Shown: piece by piece, positions 3,445 to 10,758 of the stretch
Layout: each line of letters begins with the position of its first letter
Position numbering within the stretch: position 1 is the first letter of the stretch
Assembly: GCF_026167545.1 (NCBI RefSeq)
Contig: NZ_CP110678.1
Location: 2,539,501 to 2,603,500 of the forward strand
Direction: 5' to 3'
Source: Sphingomonas sp. S1-29
GTDB taxonomy: Bacteria > Pseudomonadota > Alphaproteobacteria > Sphingomonadales > Sphingomonadaceae
DNA: 64,000 nucleotides
Notes under the pieces: generated by a model
What the model was told of the DNA's origin: nothing
Seen by the model: only the letters and a program-made list of their open reading frames with translations
Databases searched by the model: none
Made by a program: the position numbers and the translations under genes

Positions 3445-3509
3445 TAGCGCTTTCCGGAACCGACCGTCGAGCAAGCATCGCGGTCTCCGGAAAAAACATG
3501 GGCTGGTCG

Positions 3510-5171
3510 TCAAGCGCGCAACAATATCCGACGCGATTCGCCCTCGGGATCGTCGACCATGCGGCATTGGTCGTCGAACACCATCGTCTGGCAACGCATT
3601 GGGTCGCTCGGGCTCCAGTCTAGCCCCGGCTGGCTGGGATTGCCCGTCCTCGCGAAGGTCGCCCAGGCGCCGGCCATCGTCCGCGCCAGCCGCTGCGCCT
3701 CGGGCGTATTGCCCGTGCCCTGTTCGCAGCGCGCGGTGTTGTCGAAGCAAAAGGCGAGGTCGGCGGTATGCCAGGCACCCGCCAGTCCATCGAGCTGCGG
3801 AGACTGCCACTGGAACAGATATTGGTAGACCGGTGCCCCGCCCTGCACGTGCTTGAGGCGCACCATGTCCTGCACCCGGTTGCGATAGGCGATGCTCTGT
3901 ACCCCGTAGGACAGCGTGCGGACCGCCTTTTCGGGATGCGCTTTCTTCATCGAGTCGATCAGCGCGTCGCCCTTCGCCGCGCCGAGCTGATCGGTCAGGT
4001 CCTTGCGCCACTCGGCTTCGTTGGGGTTCGAGCCCCAGCGCATGCCTTCCTCGCTGGTATTGCCGATCAGCATCGGCACATCGCGGGATACCTCGGGCGC
4101 CACATCGGCGAACGACCGGACGTCGATGACCTTGCCGTCGAGCGTCGGCCCCCAGCCCACCCGCGGCGTTGGCGGCGGCCCGCCCAGGCTGCGCACCATC
4201 GGTCCGTTGATCTCGCCGGCGACGATGTTGCTTGCGGCCGAGAGATCGACCCAGGCGATCTTCTGGAGCGCTGCGATGTCGTTGGCGGCGATGCCGAGAT
4301 GCTTGACCAGCCGCCGCGAATATTCGCGCGACTGCTGCGCCGTCGGCAGCGCGCCGCCGCCACCCGATTGCGCCGCCGCGCGGTGGATCAGCCCCTTGCC
4401 CGATCGCATGCCGAGCAGCGTGGTGACCTTCGAGCCACCGCCCGACTGGCCATAGATCATCACCTTGTCGGGATCCCCGCCGAACGCGGCGATGTTCTCC
4501 TGCACCCAGCGGAGCGCCGCGACGCAATCGGTCATGCTGACATTGACCGATTCTTCATAGGCCGAACCACCCACCTCGACCAGGTCAAGGAACCCCAGCA
4601 CGTTCAGCCGATGGTTGATCGACACCTGCACCACGTCGTGATGCCGTGCCATCTGCGCACCGTCGTGCGAGGCCAGTTCGTACGATGATCCGAAGGCAAA
4701 GCCGCCGCCGTGGAAATACACCATCACCGGGCGATTGCCGCTCAGCGATGGCGTCCAGACGTTGAGCTTGAGCATGTCCTCTCCCTGGAAGCCGTCGTCC
4801 CATTGCTGCAGGAACGTATGCTCGACCGCGCGGAAATTATGCGTCGTTTGCGGGCTGTTCGCGCCATAGACGAGCGCGTTGTACGGCTCGGTCCAGGCCT
4901 TTGGCGGCTTGGCGGGCAGCCAGCGATTTTCCCCGCCGGTATCCTGGCCATAGGGGATGCCCTTGAAGGTGAACACGTCGCCTGCGACATAGCCGCGCAC
5001 CGGACCATATCGCGTCTTGGCAATCGCGCTGTGCGGCGTCGTGCCGCCCCGCGCAGGGCCGCGCGGCGGTGGCTGGACGCTTTGCGCACGCGCGGGAGGC
5101 AGCGCCAGGCCGGCACCTGCCACCATCGATGCGATCAGTGCACGCCGACGGTTTATGAGCGGTCCGGCCAT
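3510..5171 (-). CDS. Exported type-B carboxylesterase
   Basis: A protein of 553 aa from the ATG at 5171, which follows AGGAG at an 8-base spacing; the in-frame ATG at 5246 would put 25 residues before the signal. The N-terminus carries N-R-R-R-A-L-I-A-S followed by a hydrophobic stretch and A-R-A-Q, a likely Tat signal peptide. The alpha/beta hydrolase core shows the oxyanion-hole motif HGGGF near residue 154, the nucleophile elbow YGQSGGG with Ser near 243, and the WHTADLAF histidine near 468. These are type-B carboxylesterase/lipase features, so it should hydrolyse carboxylic esters in the periplasm or outside. The substrate is unknown. It is divergent from another exported hydrolase (5286-6185) across a 114-bp spacer that must hold both promoters. 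Confidence 0.92.
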   Translation of the reverse strand: MAGPLINRRRALIASMVAGAGLALPPARAQSVQPPPRGPARGGTTPHSAIAKTRYGPVRGYVAGDVFTFKGIPYGQDTGGENRWLPAKPPKAWTEPYNALVYGANSPQTTHNFRAVEHTFLQQWDDGFQGEDMLKLNVWTPSLSGNRPVMVYFHGGGFAFGSSYELASHDGAQMARHHDVVQVSINHRLNVLGFLDLVEVGGSAYEESVNVSMTDCVAALRWVQENIAAFGGDPDKVMIYGQSGGGSKVTTLLGMRSGKGLIHRAAAQSGGGGALPTAQQSREYSRRLVKHLGIAANDIAALQKIAWVDLSAASNIVAGEINGPMVRSLGGPPPTPRVGWGPTLDGKVIDVRSFADVAPEVSRDVPMLIGNTSEEGMRWGSNPNEAEWRKDLTDQLGAAKGDALIDSMKKAHPEKAVRTLSYGVQSIAYRNRVQDMVRLKHVQGGAPVYQYLFQWQSPQLDGLAGAWHTADLAFCFDNTARCEQGTGNTPEAQRLARTMAGAWATFARTGNPSQPGLDWSPSDPMRCQTMVFDDQCRMVDDPEGESRRILLRA

Positions 5172-5285
5172 GTCTTGCTCTCCTATAACCGCCTCGTTTC
5201 GGGCGTTCAGCAAGCAAAGCGTAAAAGCGGCTATCCACCGCGTCAATACTCATACAAGATGTGCGAAAGGTTGGGAGACTATTGC

Positions 5286-6185
5286 ATGCATATCGGGCGT
5301 TTTGCGCTGGCCGTTGCAGCGGCATCGATCGGGTCGGTCGTCCAGAGCCAGGAAGTGGAACGCGGCAGCGGTCCCTATCCCGCGATCTTCGAGGAGCGGG
5401 CCGACCTGCCGAACCACGTCGTCTATCGCCCCAGCGATCTTGCGCCGGCGCGCTCGGACAGACTGCCGATCTATGTGTTCGGCAATGGCGGATGCAGCGC
5501 CGACGGCACCAGCTCGCGCAACCATCTGCTCGAGATCGCGTCGCGCGGCTATCTCGTGATCGCGTCGGGTACGATCCCGCGCGCTGCCGCTCCAGCGGCC
5601 CCGGCCCCCGCTCCGCCTCGGCCCGGTGCGAAGCTGACGACCGAAACCGAAACGCGCCTGCTCATAGATGCGATCGACTGGGCACAGCGCGAGAACAATC
5701 GCGCCGGCAGCCAGTTCGCAGGCCGGATCGCGACCGACAAGATCGCGGCATCGGGCTGGAGCTGCGGCGGGTTGCAGGCGCTGACCGCCGCGCAGGACCC
5801 GCGGGTCACGACGTCGGTCATCATGAACAGCGGCTTTTTTCCCGACGGTACCAACCCGTTAAGCGGCGTGGTATCGGCCAAGGCGCTGCTTAAGACGCTG
5901 CACGGATCGGTCCTCTACCTCCTCGGCGGCCCGACCGACATCGCCTATCCCAACGGCACCGATGATTACCGGCGGCTCGAGAACATCCCGGCGGCAATGG
6001 TGAACATCCCGGTCGGCCACGGCGGCACCTATATGCAGCCGCACGGCGGCGTCGGCGCAGAGGTTGTGACGGCATGGCTTGACTGGAAGCTGAAAGGTAA
6101 AAAGGCGGCCGAAGCCCGCTTCACCGGCCCCGAATGCGGCTTCTGCAACGATCCGCGGTTGACGCTTGAGCGCAAAGACTTCTGA
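5286..6185 (+). CDS. Exported alpha/beta hydrolase
   Basis: A protein of 299 aa from the ATG at 5286, placed about eight bases after GGGAG and at the start of a hydrophobic signal-like segment (M-H-I-G-R-F-A-L-A-V-A-A-A-S). The frame is open much further upstream, but that part is antisense to the esterase. The nucleophile elbow is G-W-S-C-G with Ser159; later, G-G-P-T-D and G-H-G-G supply likely Asp and His. A proline/alanine-rich loop lies at about 100-113. This fits a dienelactone-hydrolase or PET-hydrolase-like exported hydrolase; the substrate cannot be read from sequence. It pairs with the divergent carboxylesterase, suggesting a shared ester-degrading role (inference). Confidence 0.85.
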   Translation: MHIGRFALAVAAASIGSVVQSQEVERGSGPYPAIFEERADLPNHVVYRPSDLAPARSDRLPIYVFGNGGCSADGTSSRNHLLEIASRGYLVIASGTIPRAAAPAAPAPAPPRPGAKLTTETETRLLIDAIDWAQRENNRAGSQFAGRIATDKIAASGWSCGGLQALTAAQDPRVTTSVIMNSGFFPDGTNPLSGVVSAKALLKTLHGSVLYLLGGPTDIAYPNGTDDYRRLENIPAAMVNIPVGHGGTYMQPHGGVGAEVVTAWLDWKLKGKKAAEARFTGPECGFCNDPRLTLERKDF

Positions 6186-6433
6186 CAGATGCGGGTGTTG
6201 CCCCTATGCCGGCATGACCACTGTCGGTCATTCAGCACCGTCAGGGCGGCACCCGAAACCGGCAGCTCGTTCATCAGATTGAAACGAACGCTCCGGCCAG
6301 CTTAGACTGGCGCTCGGAACAGCTTAAATAGGGACGTTGCTGCCGGTTCGCTACAAGGCGGCAAGATGGTAAGAATTGCTGTGCCGCACCCAGAGCGCTG
6401 GTGTTGTTTCAAAAAGGATTCGGGCCGGTCGCG
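6186..6433. other. Intergenic region with degenerate repeat
   Basis: A 248-bp spacer between convergent genes. It contains a piece around 6212-6262 (TGACCACTGTCGGTCATTC and nearby GGCACCCGAAACC) resembling the degenerate intergenic repeats described under findings. No gene is supported. Confidence 0.35.
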
Positions 6434-8881
6434 TCAAGATGGCTCCGTATCCGGTCGGGTGAATAGGGACACGTTGACCAACTGGTTGATGCCGGCGGCC
6501 AAATTCTCGAGCTTATACGGCTTGCGCAATATCGGAAACGCGCGCTCGTTGATGGGGATGAATTGCTCGCTGCTGTAGCCGCTGGCAAGCAGGATAGGGA
6601 GGTCATTGCGCGACTCCTTTATCTGAGTGGCCAGTTCAAGCCCGCTCATACCGGGCATGACGATATCGGAGAACACAAGGTCAACCTCGTGTTCTTCGAT
6701 CAACCGGAGCGCCTCCTCCCCGTCGGACGCCTCAACCACCTTGCAGCCGAGATCCTCAAGCAGCTGGCGCGCGAAGTAGCGAACATGTTCGCTGTCTTCT
6801 ACAAGAAGAACTCTAAGGCCTTTCGGGAGCACGGCGTCACGCGCAAGAGCGTGCTCGTTCTCGCGCTGCTTTTCGGTTCGGGGCAGCCATAGCTCCACCA
6901 GTGTGCCGTAGCCTACTTCAGACTCGATGCGAGCCGATCCGCCCGATTGCACTGCGTAGCCGTGGATCTGCGAGAGACCGAGTCCAGTGCCTTTGCCGGT
7001 CGGCTTCGTGGTGAAAAAGGGCTCGAAAACGCGCTTGAGCGTTTCAGGCGCAATCCCTTCGCCGGTATCTCGGATCGACAAGATAACCCCATCACGCTGC
7101 TCTCGCGTGGCATTTGTGGTCGAAATCGTAATCCGGCCGCCCTTGGGCATGGCATCGCGGGCATTGAGAACCGCGTTCAGCAACGCGGCTTCAAGGCCAG
7201 TCGGGTCGATCTCCACCGGCCATAGTGCCGGGGTGAGATCGAGTTGAAGGTCATAGAGGCATCCCAGCGTGCGCTGAAGCATTTCTCCCATGGCATCCAG
7301 CCGGACGCTGAGGTCAATGACCTCGGGCTCGAGCGGCTGACGGCGGGCGAAGGCAAGCAGCTGGGAGGTCAGACTAGTTGCACGCTCAGCCGTCTCCAGC
7401 ATGACGCTCAAATAGCGGTTTCGCTTCTCAAGTGGCAGGTCCGGCTGCTTCAGCAAAAAATCCGCTGAGCCACGCATAACCGTCATCAGGTTGTTGAAGT
7501 CGTGGGCAATGCCACCGGCAAGCTCGCCCAGCGCCTGCAGCTTCTGGGACTGCAAAAGAGCTTCTTGCGTATGGCGCAGCTCCTGCTCCGCCTGCTTTTT
7601 CTCGCTTATGTCGCGGGTGATCTTGGCAAAGCCCACATGCTCGCCCGCATCATTGTAAATCGGGTCGATCAGCACGTGCGCCCAGAACAGCGAGCCGTCC
7701 TTCCGAACCCGCTGAGCTTCAGCTTCGAACTTCCCAGCCCGCAGGGACGTTTCCAAAGCGATGTCCGGAGCTCCCCGCTCGCGATCTTCTTCGGTGTAGA
7801 AGAGGGAGAAATGCTGCCCCAGGACCTCTCCTTCCTCGTACCCCTTTATGGTTTGGGCCCCCGAGTTCCAGCTCGCGATCCGGCCATGCCGGTCGAGCAT
7901 GTAGATGGCGTAGTCCCGCACTCCCTCGACCAGCATCTTGAGTTGAAGTGCAATGTCATAGGTGGCCTGCTCGAGACGCCGCGTTTCGGTTATGTCTCGA
8001 GTGATCTTGGCGAAGCCGATCAGCGATCCGTCCTCATCATGAACGGCATCCACGATCACATGTGCGAGGAACGTCGCCCCATCCTTGCGGAGCCGCCAAC
8101 CTTCCATCTCGAACCGCTTCTGCTCCGCGGCGGTCTTCAAGATACGGGCGGGCAGGCCGCCCCGTTGGTCGTCCGGCAGGAAGAACGTTGAAAAATGCCG
8201 ACCGATGATCTCGTCGGCCTCGTATCCCTTAAAGCGGCGGGCGCCAGCGTTCCAAGTGGTCACGCGACCCTCTAGGTCCAGCATGTAGATGGCGTAATCT
8301 TCGACCGAGCCGACAAGCAGCTGGAATCGCCGTTCGCTGTCGCGCAGCGCCCGCTCGCGCTCCTTTCGCTCGGTGATGTCGCGAGTGATCTTCGCGAAGC
8401 CTTTAAGCGATCCATCCTCGCCGTAGATCGCGTCCAGAACGGCATGGGCCCAAAAGCGACTACCATCCTTCCTGATTCGCCAGCCTTCGGCTTCGAAACG
8501 GCGTTCGCGCGCTGCCGTCGACAGAGCTCGAGCTGGCACGCCCGCTTCTCGATCCTCATGGGAGAAGAATCTGGAGAAATGCTCACCAATGATCTCGTTC
8601 GCCGAATACCCCTTGAAGCGCTCTGCTCCGGAGTTCCAGGTTACGATGCTGCCATGGGGATCCAGCATGTAAATCGCGTAGTCTGTCACAGCGTCCACTA
8701 GCAGCTGAAACGTCTCGGCTGGAGGCTGCTTACTAGTGTCAACTGTGTTCAAGATTTGATCCTGCGCTAGCGCCTCGGCCCACAAACATAGACCAAAGTC
8801 CATACCGAGCCGAAACCCTCGCGCAACAGGAATCGCATCTGGTTCAGAGAGGCTGTGCGCCCGACTAGAGCCCAGCTTCAA
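6434..8881 (-). CDS. Triple-PAS hybrid histidine kinase/response regulator
   Basis: Up to 815 aa. Three PAS domains in tandem lie at about 55-170, 185-297 and 312-427, each ending in F-A-K-I-T-R-D-I. The dimerisation/phosphoacceptor segment has G-G-I-A-H-D-F-N-N with His460, followed by an HWE/HisKA-type ATPase (D-T-G-E-G-I-A, G-T-G-L-G-L-S-Q) and a C-terminal receiver (about 687-815, phospho-Asp739, K-P-Y). No membrane segment is seen, so it is probably cytosolic. The longest start is a TTG overlapping the LOV-regulator gene by 17 bp; an ATG at 8803 is the alternative. Overlap indicates co-transcription with the photoreceptor gene. The PAS domains lack the LOV cysteine; their ligand is unknown. 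Confidence 0.93.
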   Translation of the reverse strand: MKLGSSRAHSLSEPDAIPVARGFRLGMDFGLCLWAEALAQDQILNTVDTSKQPPAETFQLLVDAVTDYAIYMLDPHGSIVTWNSGAERFKGYSANEIIGEHFSRFFSHEDREAGVPARALSTAARERRFEAEGWRIRKDGSRFWAHAVLDAIYGEDGSLKGFAKITRDITERKERERALRDSERRFQLLVGSVEDYAIYMLDLEGRVTTWNAGARRFKGYEADEIIGRHFSTFFLPDDQRGGLPARILKTAAEQKRFEMEGWRLRKDGATFLAHVIVDAVHDEDGSLIGFAKITRDITETRRLEQATYDIALQLKMLVEGVRDYAIYMLDRHGRIASWNSGAQTIKGYEEGEVLGQHFSLFYTEEDRERGAPDIALETSLRAGKFEAEAQRVRKDGSLFWAHVLIDPIYNDAGEHVGFAKITRDISEKKQAEQELRHTQEALLQSQKLQALGELAGGIAHDFNNLMTVMRGSADFLLKQPDLPLEKRNRYLSVMLETAERATSLTSQLLAFARRQPLEPEVIDLSVRLDAMGEMLQRTLGCLYDLQLDLTPALWPVEIDPTGLEAALLNAVLNARDAMPKGGRITISTTNATREQRDGVILSIRDTGEGIAPETLKRVFEPFFTTKPTGKGTGLGLSQIHGYAVQSGGSARIESEVGYGTLVELWLPRTEKQRENEHALARDAVLPKGLRVLLVEDSEHVRYFARQLLEDLGCKVVEASDGEEALRLIEEHEVDLVFSDIVMPGMSGLELATQIKESRNDLPILLASGYSSEQFIPINERAFPILRKPYKLENLAAGINQLVNVSLFTRPDTEPS

Positions 8882-9500
8882 TCGCCAGCCGCATGGCTTC
8901 GGCAGTGCTGGATACGCCCAAGCGCTTGATCAGCGCGCCACGGTGCATCTTGATGGTCTTCTCGGTTAGGCCCAGGTGCTCGCCAATCTGCCGATTGCGC
9001 AAGCCTTTTGCCATCTGGCGCAGAACGGCCTGCTGCTGCCGTGTCAGCTGATCAACCCGGGCTGCGGCTGAAGCGCGAAGGTGGTCACTCTGACCGGCAG
9101 CCACCTCCATTTGGCTGCCAACGAAGTAGGCAAGTTCAGCTTGGTCGTCGAAGACAGGAGCGATCATCACGGCGTTCAGGAACTTGCTACCGTCCTTGCG
9201 ATAGTTGAGAACCTCAAGCACGATCGGGGCGGCTGCGGCGACGGCTTGGGCAAGCGCCGCCGAATGTGCCCGCTGGGTTTCCGGCCCGGCAAGAATGCGG
9301 CAGTTGCGACCGACGAGTTCACTTTCCGAATATCTGGTAAGCTGCTCGAATTGCCGGTTGGCCGCTATGATCGAATTGTCGTCAGCCCTCGCATCTGTGA
9401 CGATTGAGGCGATCGGTGAGAGCCGGATTGACCGAATGAGCTCCCACTCGTCGCTGCTGCGCCTGTCTAATCTGGTCGCGGTGAACATGACAGCGTTCAT
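8865..9500 (-). CDS. LOV-HTH blue-light transcription factor, EL222-like
   Basis: A protein of 211 aa. Residues about 27-135 form a PAS fold with the LOV signature G-R-N-C-R-I-L; Cys67 is the residue that forms the flavin adduct in known LOV domains. Residues about 148-211 are a LuxR-type helix-turn-helix (L-T-x-x-Q, G-L-R-N-R-Q-I, E-K-T-I-K-M-H-R). Order, length and many segments (S-P-I-A-S, L-N-Y-x-K-D-G, G-S-Q-x-E-V) match EL222 of Erythrobacter litoralis, a photoreceptor that dimerises and binds DNA after blue light. Function is inferred by this resemblance. No clear ribosome binding site precedes the ATG; M5 is an alternative. It overlaps the hybrid kinase gene. Confidence 0.9.
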   Translation of the reverse strand: MNAVMFTATRLDRRSSDEWELIRSIRLSPIASIVTDARADDNSIIAANRQFEQLTRYSESELVGRNCRILAGPETQRAHSAALAQAVAAAAPIVLEVLNYRKDGSKFLNAVMIAPVFDDQAELAYFVGSQMEVAAGQSDHLRASAAARVDQLTRQQQAVLRQMAKGLRNRQIGEHLGLTEKTIKMHRGALIKRLGVSSTAEAMRLAIEAGL

Positions 9501-9864
9501 ATGACAAAATGGTCGATGACGGCAAACCTGATCCCGTTACTCGTAACAGCCGACCGCATGGTAGCTCGGCTGCATTGGCTTTCCACGCAGGGCACCGCTT
9601 CTCGTCCGCGTTGGGCGACTGTGTCGAGAGCTGCCGCCGGCTTCGCGTCGGAGCTGACCCAGAAGCGGACGATCGCGGCATCAAATCCGCTACTCCAAAT
9701 CTGTCATTCATTCAGGTCTGATTTGGTTGCTAGTCGACAATTCCTTACGACAGGCTGACCAGCCGATATTCGCCGCAAACCGCAGCGAGTCCGCCGAAGT
9801 TGCGAGGCACCGATATCGAACTGGCTTGGGCTCGTTGCTTCAAGGCGCAATGGCGCCGTTCTCG
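9501..9864. other. Intergenic region with a degenerate repeat
   Basis: A 364-bp gap upstream of the LOV regulator. It contains the motif TGACCCAGAAGCGGAC at 9655-9670, which recurs in related form at 11665 and 11761. It should also hold the LOV gene promoter. No gene is supported on either strand. Confidence 0.4.
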
Positions 9865-10758
9865 TCACCTCGCCGCAAGAAAATGCACCATCGCGCGCTC
9901 GAACGCCGCAGGCTGGTCGAGCATAATGAAATGCCAGCTGTCGGCAACGGGTACCAAAGTCGCCCCGCTCCCTGCATAGTCGCGCTCCCAAACTGCCTTC
10001 GCCTGCGGCCCCGCGCCCGTCGCATAAAGAACATGAAAGGGCCGCACCGCGATCTTGGGCAAATCGGCGCGCAAGTCGGTAGTGAGATCCTCGTACATCG
10101 CCTGCGCCACCACGCGTTGGTCGGCGCGCTCGGACCAGTTCGCCACCTGGATGCGTCCGGCCGCTGTATTAGACCAGATGCCGCCGGGATCTGTCGTCAC
10201 CGCGGGGGCGTCGCGTGTCGCCCCATGCTTGGCGGCGATTCCGTTACGCATTTGAGCCGCACGCGGAGCCACGTTAGAAGCAGTCGCGGCGGGATCGAAC
10301 AACGTCCCGATGAACGGGAGCGCGTCGATGATCATCACCCGCCCCACGCGACCGGGATGGCGCACGGCGAGCATCATCGCGACCAGCCCCCCCATTGAAT
10401 GGCCTGCAATCGCGGGTGCGTCGATGCCGCGATCGGCAAGATGGGCAGCGATATCGGCGACGATGCCGTCGAGCAGGCCCGGCTTCAGGTTCGCACCCGG
10501 ATCGCTGCCGCCGAAGCCGTTGACCTCCACGGTCAGCACATGATGCGTTTTCCTTAGCGTCGGTACGATCCCATCGTACACAGCGCGCGGGGAGGCGAGC
10601 CCTGGTATCAGGATCACGACCGGCCCTGTCCCGCCCTCATCACGGATCGAGATGTGCTGGTGCTGAACCATCGGCGACGGCGCGGCGGCGCGGACCTGGG
10701 CGGTGGCGTTGGTGGCCGGGACGGTCGCCAGGGCAAGATAAATCGCGAAACGGATCAT
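9865..10758 (-). CDS. Exported alpha/beta-fold hydrolase
   Basis: A protein of 297 aa from the ATG at 10758, preceded by AAGGAGA; longer in-frame starts would overlap the upstream regulator. The N-terminus (M-I-R-F-A-I-Y-L-A-L-A ... A-T-A-Q) is a signal peptide. Oxyanion-region P-G-L-A, nucleophile elbow G-H-S-M-G with Ser121, and the late D-S-W-H-F histidine near 276 give a complete triad. The insertion near 150-220 is a helical cap. It is likely a periplasmic esterase or related hydrolase; the substrate is unknown. The start codon overlaps the end of the XRE regulator gene, so it belongs to a three-gene operon (membrane protein, regulator, hydrolase). Confidence 0.88.
   Translation of the reverse strand: MIRFAIYLALATVPATNATAQVRAAAPSPMVQHQHISIRDEGGTGPVVILIPGLASPRAVYDGIVPTLRKTHHVLTVEVNGFGGSDPGANLKPGLLDGIVADIAAHLADRGIDAPAIAGHSMGGLVAMMLAVRHPGRVGRVMIIDALPFIGTLFDPAATASNVAPRAAQMRNGIAAKHGATRDAPAVTTDPGGIWSNTAAGRIQVANWSERADQRVVAQAMYEDLTTDLRADLPKIAVRPFHVLYATGAGPQAKAVWERDYAGSGATLVPVADSWHFIMLDQPAAFERAMVHFLAAR

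Follow-up and report, generated by a model that had tools for sequence, protein, structure and literature searches.

The window analysed here is a 64,000-nt stretch of the genome of Sphingomonas sp. S1-29 (contig NZ_CP110678.1, positions 2,539,501 to 2,603,500). On its minus strand, a gene for a LOV-HTH regulator lies upstream of a gene for a hybrid histidine kinase. The spacer between them holds a candidate operator together with putative signals for transcription and translation. Read in the direction of the genes, the features are:

8865-9500, minus strand: LOV-HTH regulator of 211 aa, with the motif GRNCRIL including Cys67 and a C-terminal LuxR/GerE HTH
8753-8864, minus strand: spacer of 112 nt from the LOV stop to the kinase start, as defined by re-assignment of that start
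8823-8826, minus strand: putative -35 element TTGC, 22 nt before the TA of the operator
8787-8804, minus strand: EL222-type candidate operator TATGGACTTTGGTCTATG, an 18-bp near-palindrome with the core RGNCY-N2-RGNCY at 8801-8790
8760-8763, minus strand: putative ribosome-binding site AGGA, 7 nt before the TTG, placed by alignment
6434-8752, minus strand: hybrid histidine kinase of 772 aa, with three PAS domains, HisKA, HATPase_c and a receiver, and a TTG start

Homologous pairs occur elsewhere, a point that the preliminary description of this locus had raised. A LOV-HTH gene with the kinase gene directly downstream (more than 50% identity) is present at 16 loci in 14 genomes, which argues against a chance association; the loci that carry this module are related, so counts taken from them are not independent. 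The overlapping search sets comprised 199 genomes of the family, 151 and 295 of the genus, 5 of the genus of genome G125, 396 of the order, and the set genome_contigs. Our panel of 34 LOV-HTH loci is a selection of all matches and divides into the 16 paired loci and 18 without the kinase, which was found at none of the 18 within the stretches examined. At E <= 1e-58, the search of the genus matched 9 of 295 genomes at 11 loci, all of them among the 16 paired ones.

Within the window's genome, both genes are part of a 6.2-kb block (3466-9661) that is duplicated at 96% DNA identity:

G000:C1, about 1146914-1153107 (L039 1915-8108): second copy of the block, comprising carboxylesterase, a further hydrolase-like ORF (by eye), kinase and LOV gene

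Comparison of the two copies gives a dN/dS of 0.09 (kinase) and 0.23 (LOV gene), so that both genes look maintained. In the second copy, the carboxylesterase (L039 1973-3694) appears frameshifted near its 3' end relative to window 3510-5246, and a transposase-like ORF, identified by eye only, lies close by (L039 8493-9047). Another PAS hybrid kinase (L039 14865-16994) is encoded some 7 kb away from the second module; on the same strand, immediately upstream of it, there is a short LOV-like match. Genome G352, assigned to Sphingomonas aerophila, also has the module twice (L172 and L173), on different contigs. The module of G618 (L181) has suffered an out-of-frame deletion reaching from within the HTH to the PAS region of the kinase; the operator is gone and the HTH broken, and we regard this module as decayed.

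The regulator agrees with its earlier description as a 211-aa LOV protein with GRNCRIL, Cys67 and a C-terminal LuxR HTH: the reading frame is in place, and a domain search assigns residues 150-206 to the GerE/LuxR HTH (PF00196, E 1.1e-15). Its top relatives of solved structure are those of EL222 (8a5r and 3p7n, E 2e-51 to 4e-51). An AlphaFold model with a mean pLDDT of 82.7, computed from an alignment of 17 relatives, likewise has EL222 8a5r as its first match (E 5.1e-20, 46% identity, TM about 0.72). The NCR motif is invariant across all 35 aligned LOV-HTH rows, and N66, C67, R68, N99, N109 and Q130 are invariant in 17 of 17 rows; we take these residues, other than Cys67, to be flavin contacts. 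As judged from its sequence, with the NCR cysteine, the flavin-contact residues and the C-terminal LuxR/GerE HTH, the protein belongs to the EL222-type family in the broad sense, and its residues and predicted fold suggest that it responds to light. It resembles EL222 of Erythrobacter litoralis in its combination of LOV and LuxR HTH, in its cysteine and flavin residues, in its predicted fold and in a candidate operator of the RGNCY-N2-RGNCY type.

Being "EL222-like", as first described, applies to these best relatives but does not extend to orthology, which the tree rules out. All 16 kinase-paired LOV proteins form a separate clade (support 92/78; 15 of the 16 at 99/98), whereas EL222 clusters with the unpaired LOV-HTH proteins, among them a third LOV-HTH of the window's genome. 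The residue following NCR is Phe in EL222 and in 17 of 18 unpaired proteins, and non-Phe in all 16 paired ones. The HTH helices of paired and EL222-clade proteins are similar in the alignment. The gene for the third LOV-HTH (G000:C1:2325684-2326253; L041 7523-8257) adjoins an ORF that resembles, by eye, a cyclopropane-fatty-acid synthase; no neighbour is common to at least four of the 15 EL222-type loci. A count of 2014 found just eight LOV proteins in bacteria that carry an HTH (PMC4844311).

The kinase carries the three PAS domains and the receiver already noted for it, plus HisKA and HATPase_c, and its domain matches (PF00512, PF02518 and PF00072) all exceed their cut-offs. Kinase ORFs were called at 15 of the 16 module loci (none at L059), and 14 of these 15 contain the motif GGIAHDFNN. 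The number of PAS domains is two or three in most of them, with three in the window copy (WIN), L039, L091, L171 and L180. The H-box, HATPase_c and receiver identify the protein, at the level of sequence, as a HisKA-type hybrid histidine kinase. The LOV-cysteine motif NCR is absent from all 15 kinase ORFs, so that the earlier statement that the PAS domains lack the LOV cysteine stands; with this cysteine in no PAS domain, the kinase does not class as a blue-light LOV histidine kinase. Its HK-receiver part nevertheless scores best, among NCBIfam models, against PRK13557 (440 bits, below the cut-off of 631), a family that presumably often carries a LOV domain and that is also the best NCBIfam match of the LOV-HTH protein, via its LOV domain. 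The module shares with blue-light LOV histidine kinases the affinities of this kinase core, and differs from them in placing the light input on a separate gene. Because the core resembles kinases that we take to carry LOV directly, a light input once part of the kinase protein may have shifted to the neighbouring gene.

The preliminary description gave the kinase gene a 17-bp overlap with the LOV gene, which would require a kinase start at TTG 8881. This overlap is refuted by in-frame stops at other loci. In the second copy, the kinase frame meets first the LOV gene's stop and then a stop in the spacer, both upstream of a later TTG; in G125, assigned to Croceibacterium ferulae, an in-frame stop lies directly upstream of the same TTG. 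In the alignment, 14 of 15 loci share this later TTG (window 8752) and a preceding [AG]GGA. From these stops and the conserved TTG we place the kinase start at 8752, which leaves a spacer of 112 nt. Overlapping, translationally coupled genes that form a single light-plus-phosphorelay operon, for which the frame of the window copy, open back to TTG 8881, might have spoken, are on this evidence very improbable.

The spacer contains the kind of EL222-type site for which the preliminary description had suggested a search near the regulator's targets. According to PMC10521638, the EL222 half-site is RGNCY, and TAGGTAGCCTTTAGTCCATG is the truncated C120 operator; TATGGACTTTGGTCTATG of the window fits the operator rule stated there. 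Of the 16 paired loci, 15 have an RGNCY-N2-RGNCY site in the spacer, with its TA 49-66 nt past the LOV stop; the sole exception is the decayed module of G618. At the junction of the G373 kinase (L206) the operator is present. Shuffled 110-nt spacers contain such a site by chance in 4.1% of cases on average. In ten diverged loci, mean conservation is 0.90 over the operator positions and 0.48 over the 18 positions upstream.

Conservation at the site exceeds what a palindrome would require, as the left TA of the operator is invariant (15 of 15) but its mirrored TA is found in just 4 of 15 loci. A TTGC stands at a constant 22 nt upstream in 15 of 15 loci, and the positions between are poorly conserved. 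The asymmetric TA and the fixed TTGC together suggest a -35/-10 pair, TTGC-N18-TA, with the operator lying over the -10.

These features point to a dedicated light switch in which the LOV-HTH protein binds the junction operator and blocks transcription of the kinase in blue light, a reading that we favour by a narrow balance. By analogy with EL222, blue light would form a flavin-Cys67 adduct and release the HTH, allowing the protein to dimerize. The dimer would then bind the palindromic operator between the genes, a site supported by its conservation. As the operator covers the putative -10 of the kinase promoter, transcription of the kinase would be blocked in the light; in darkness the kinase would be made, so that light sets the amount of hybrid kinase and the kinase's PAS domains would sense something other than light. 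In some Sphingomonas-group bacteria, light thus probably controls whether the kinase is made. The link between light-driven transcription and a phosphorelay proposed in the preliminary description is retained in this form, through an operator that tracks the pairing, although the overlap on which it had been argued is not.

Repression is likelier than activation because the operator overlaps the putative -10, and we rank it accordingly, although the direction of regulation is the weakest step of the mechanism. A review reports light repression from an engineered EL222 operator placed between -10 and -35, and activation by EL222 where the site is upstream of -35 (PMC9614035). The latter arrangement would fit the same dedicated switch with the opposite sign, in which the lit LOV-HTH protein activates a promoter downstream of the operator and the kinase is made in the light. 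LuxR-type activators bind at about -42. The centre of the operator lies 40.5-46.5 nt before the TTG start, at 43.5 nt in 8 of 12 loci (L063, L173 and L184 were left out for errors of the automatic start call), which would match an activator position if the transcript began at the TTG. Other points against repression are that a scan of 8600-9900 for an E. coli-type sigma-70 promoter found none and that the putative -10, TATGGA, is a poor one. Activation leaves the fixed TTGC in 15 of 15 loci without explanation, however, and a transcript starting at the TTG would exclude AGGA from the message. Read as a ribosome-binding site, the conserved AGGA speaks against such a leaderless transcript; at similar spacing it also precedes the ATG of six of eight kinases that lack a LOV partner (by eye). 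Taken together, we consider activation unlikely, if well short of negligible.

The operator could also act mainly as a roadblock to read-through from the LOV gene, with the kinase having no promoter of its own. The two genes are co-directional and about 110 nt apart, and the consensus promoter was not found in the scan, but a TTGC at a fixed distance would then be unnecessary, and we regard this arrangement as improbable.

A natural control for the operator is offered by the orphan kinases, eight orthologs in the genus (71-76% identity) without a LOV-HTH match in the upstream stretch examined, whose genomes are not among the nine with a LOV-HTH protein at E <= 1e-58. In all eight, the 220 bp upstream of the first PAS domain lack the operator. 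A partial kinase match in G320 (71% over 399 residues) stands outside this comparison. In the kinase tree, 15 of the 16 paired kinases form one clade (96/93), outside which lies the deep-branching L184, a locus that carries both the operator and the TTGC. This suggests an old pairing with loss in the orphans more than repeated gain. We treated three other sets of RGNCY-N2-RGNCY sites as background: those at -167 of 6 of 13 distant kinases (about 50% identity), which lie inside the kinases' own ORFs; one in the kinase coding part of L181, 30 nt past the LOV stop; and those within 200 nt downstream of 2 of 18 unpaired LOV-HTH genes (L074 and L182).

Genome-wide, most sites of the strict form of the operator are at the junctions. 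The strict motif YRGACTTTRGTCYR, which misses the variant junction sites of G723 and G663, has 18 sites in 26 genomes, as many as its reversed control. LOV/kinase junctions account for 12 of the 18, and each of the remaining six falls in a candidate ORF, so the motif is not enriched outside the junctions. In the ten module genomes with a strict match at the junction, 12 of 13 genome-wide strict sites are at the junction. Across the order (396 genomes), the composite pattern TTGC-N18-TAYRGMCTTWRGTC has seven matches; every one is at a junction, two of them in the window's genome, and the reversed control of the pattern gives none among the matches listed. The composite was derived from 15 loci that include those recovered, so that their recovery follows by construction and the absence of matches elsewhere is the informative part.

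Further operator targets in the window's genome were rejected, as RGNCYTTRGNCYRT is no commoner there than its reversed control (6 versus 7 sites); two of the six are the two junctions and the other four lie inside candidate ORFs. Autoregulation through the same operator was likewise rejected: RGNCY-(TT/AA/TA)-RGNCY is absent from the LOV gene and up to 800 bp upstream of it at 16 of 16 loci. With any two bases allowed between the half-sites, an upstream site is seen at one of the seven loci first examined (L059), and the LOV gene may have a weaker or different autoregulatory site. The kinase thus appears to be the sole direct target of the regulator with a strict site.

Service of the site to another protein, such as the EL222-clade regulator of the same genome, with the neighbouring LOV-HTH acting elsewhere, is less probable still than a roadblock. 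The window's genome does encode such a regulator (C1:2325684), and the HTH helices are alike. The site, however, tracks the neighbouring paired gene, being absent at the eight orphan kinases, and strict sites elsewhere fall in candidate ORFs.

Set beside known systems, the favoured light-repressed switch resembles pBLrep, an engineered EL222 repression promoter that likewise has an EL222-type operator in the core promoter and is repressed by light (PMC9614035). The module differs from it in being natural and deduced from conservation, and in having its operator over the putative -10 instead of between -10 and -35. In Pseudomonas mendocina, a LOV sensor (PmSB-LOV) similarly adjoins the gene of its partner, the LitR-type PmlR2 (PMC9758184). 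That partner is the DNA-binding effector, whereas in the module the HTH is part of the LOV protein and the partner gene encodes a kinase. The literature searched described neither a LOV-HTH/kinase pair nor a natural operator of this type. Nor did it contain a natural EL222 regulon, within a scope that excluded the original EL222 DNA-substrate paper, so that a target described there could be missed.

EL222 is widely used in optogenetics. Since 15 natural sites of fixed promoter geometry point to one clear target, what an EL222-type protein does in nature can be put to a direct test. We give slightly less than an even chance to the broader view that this is a natural switch of one regulator, one operator and one target, run by a clade beside EL222 that has specialised in controlling how much of a hybrid kinase is made. 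On this view the operator would cover the -10 region, and the phosphorelay would be gated by kinase synthesis and not by kinase activity. If repression is correct, the junction would be a light-off promoter that is both natural and compact, and a simple route for light to gate a two-component pathway.

The module appears to consist of the two genes and their spacer alone, because no other neighbour recurs in at least three module loci apart from one protein shared by three close loci and other hybrid kinases. The latter lie near 6 of the 16 modules (L039, L059, L170, L171, L174 and L180), and around the eight orphan kinases no ORF is shared by three or more loci. The G125 module is flanked by two genes that look, by eye, GGDEF-EAL-like (L040 4612-6774 and 10124-12340). 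In the window, a plus-strand ORF at 11975-13189 matches PF20283, the CTD7 domain of ABC-three-component systems (E 2.9e-22).
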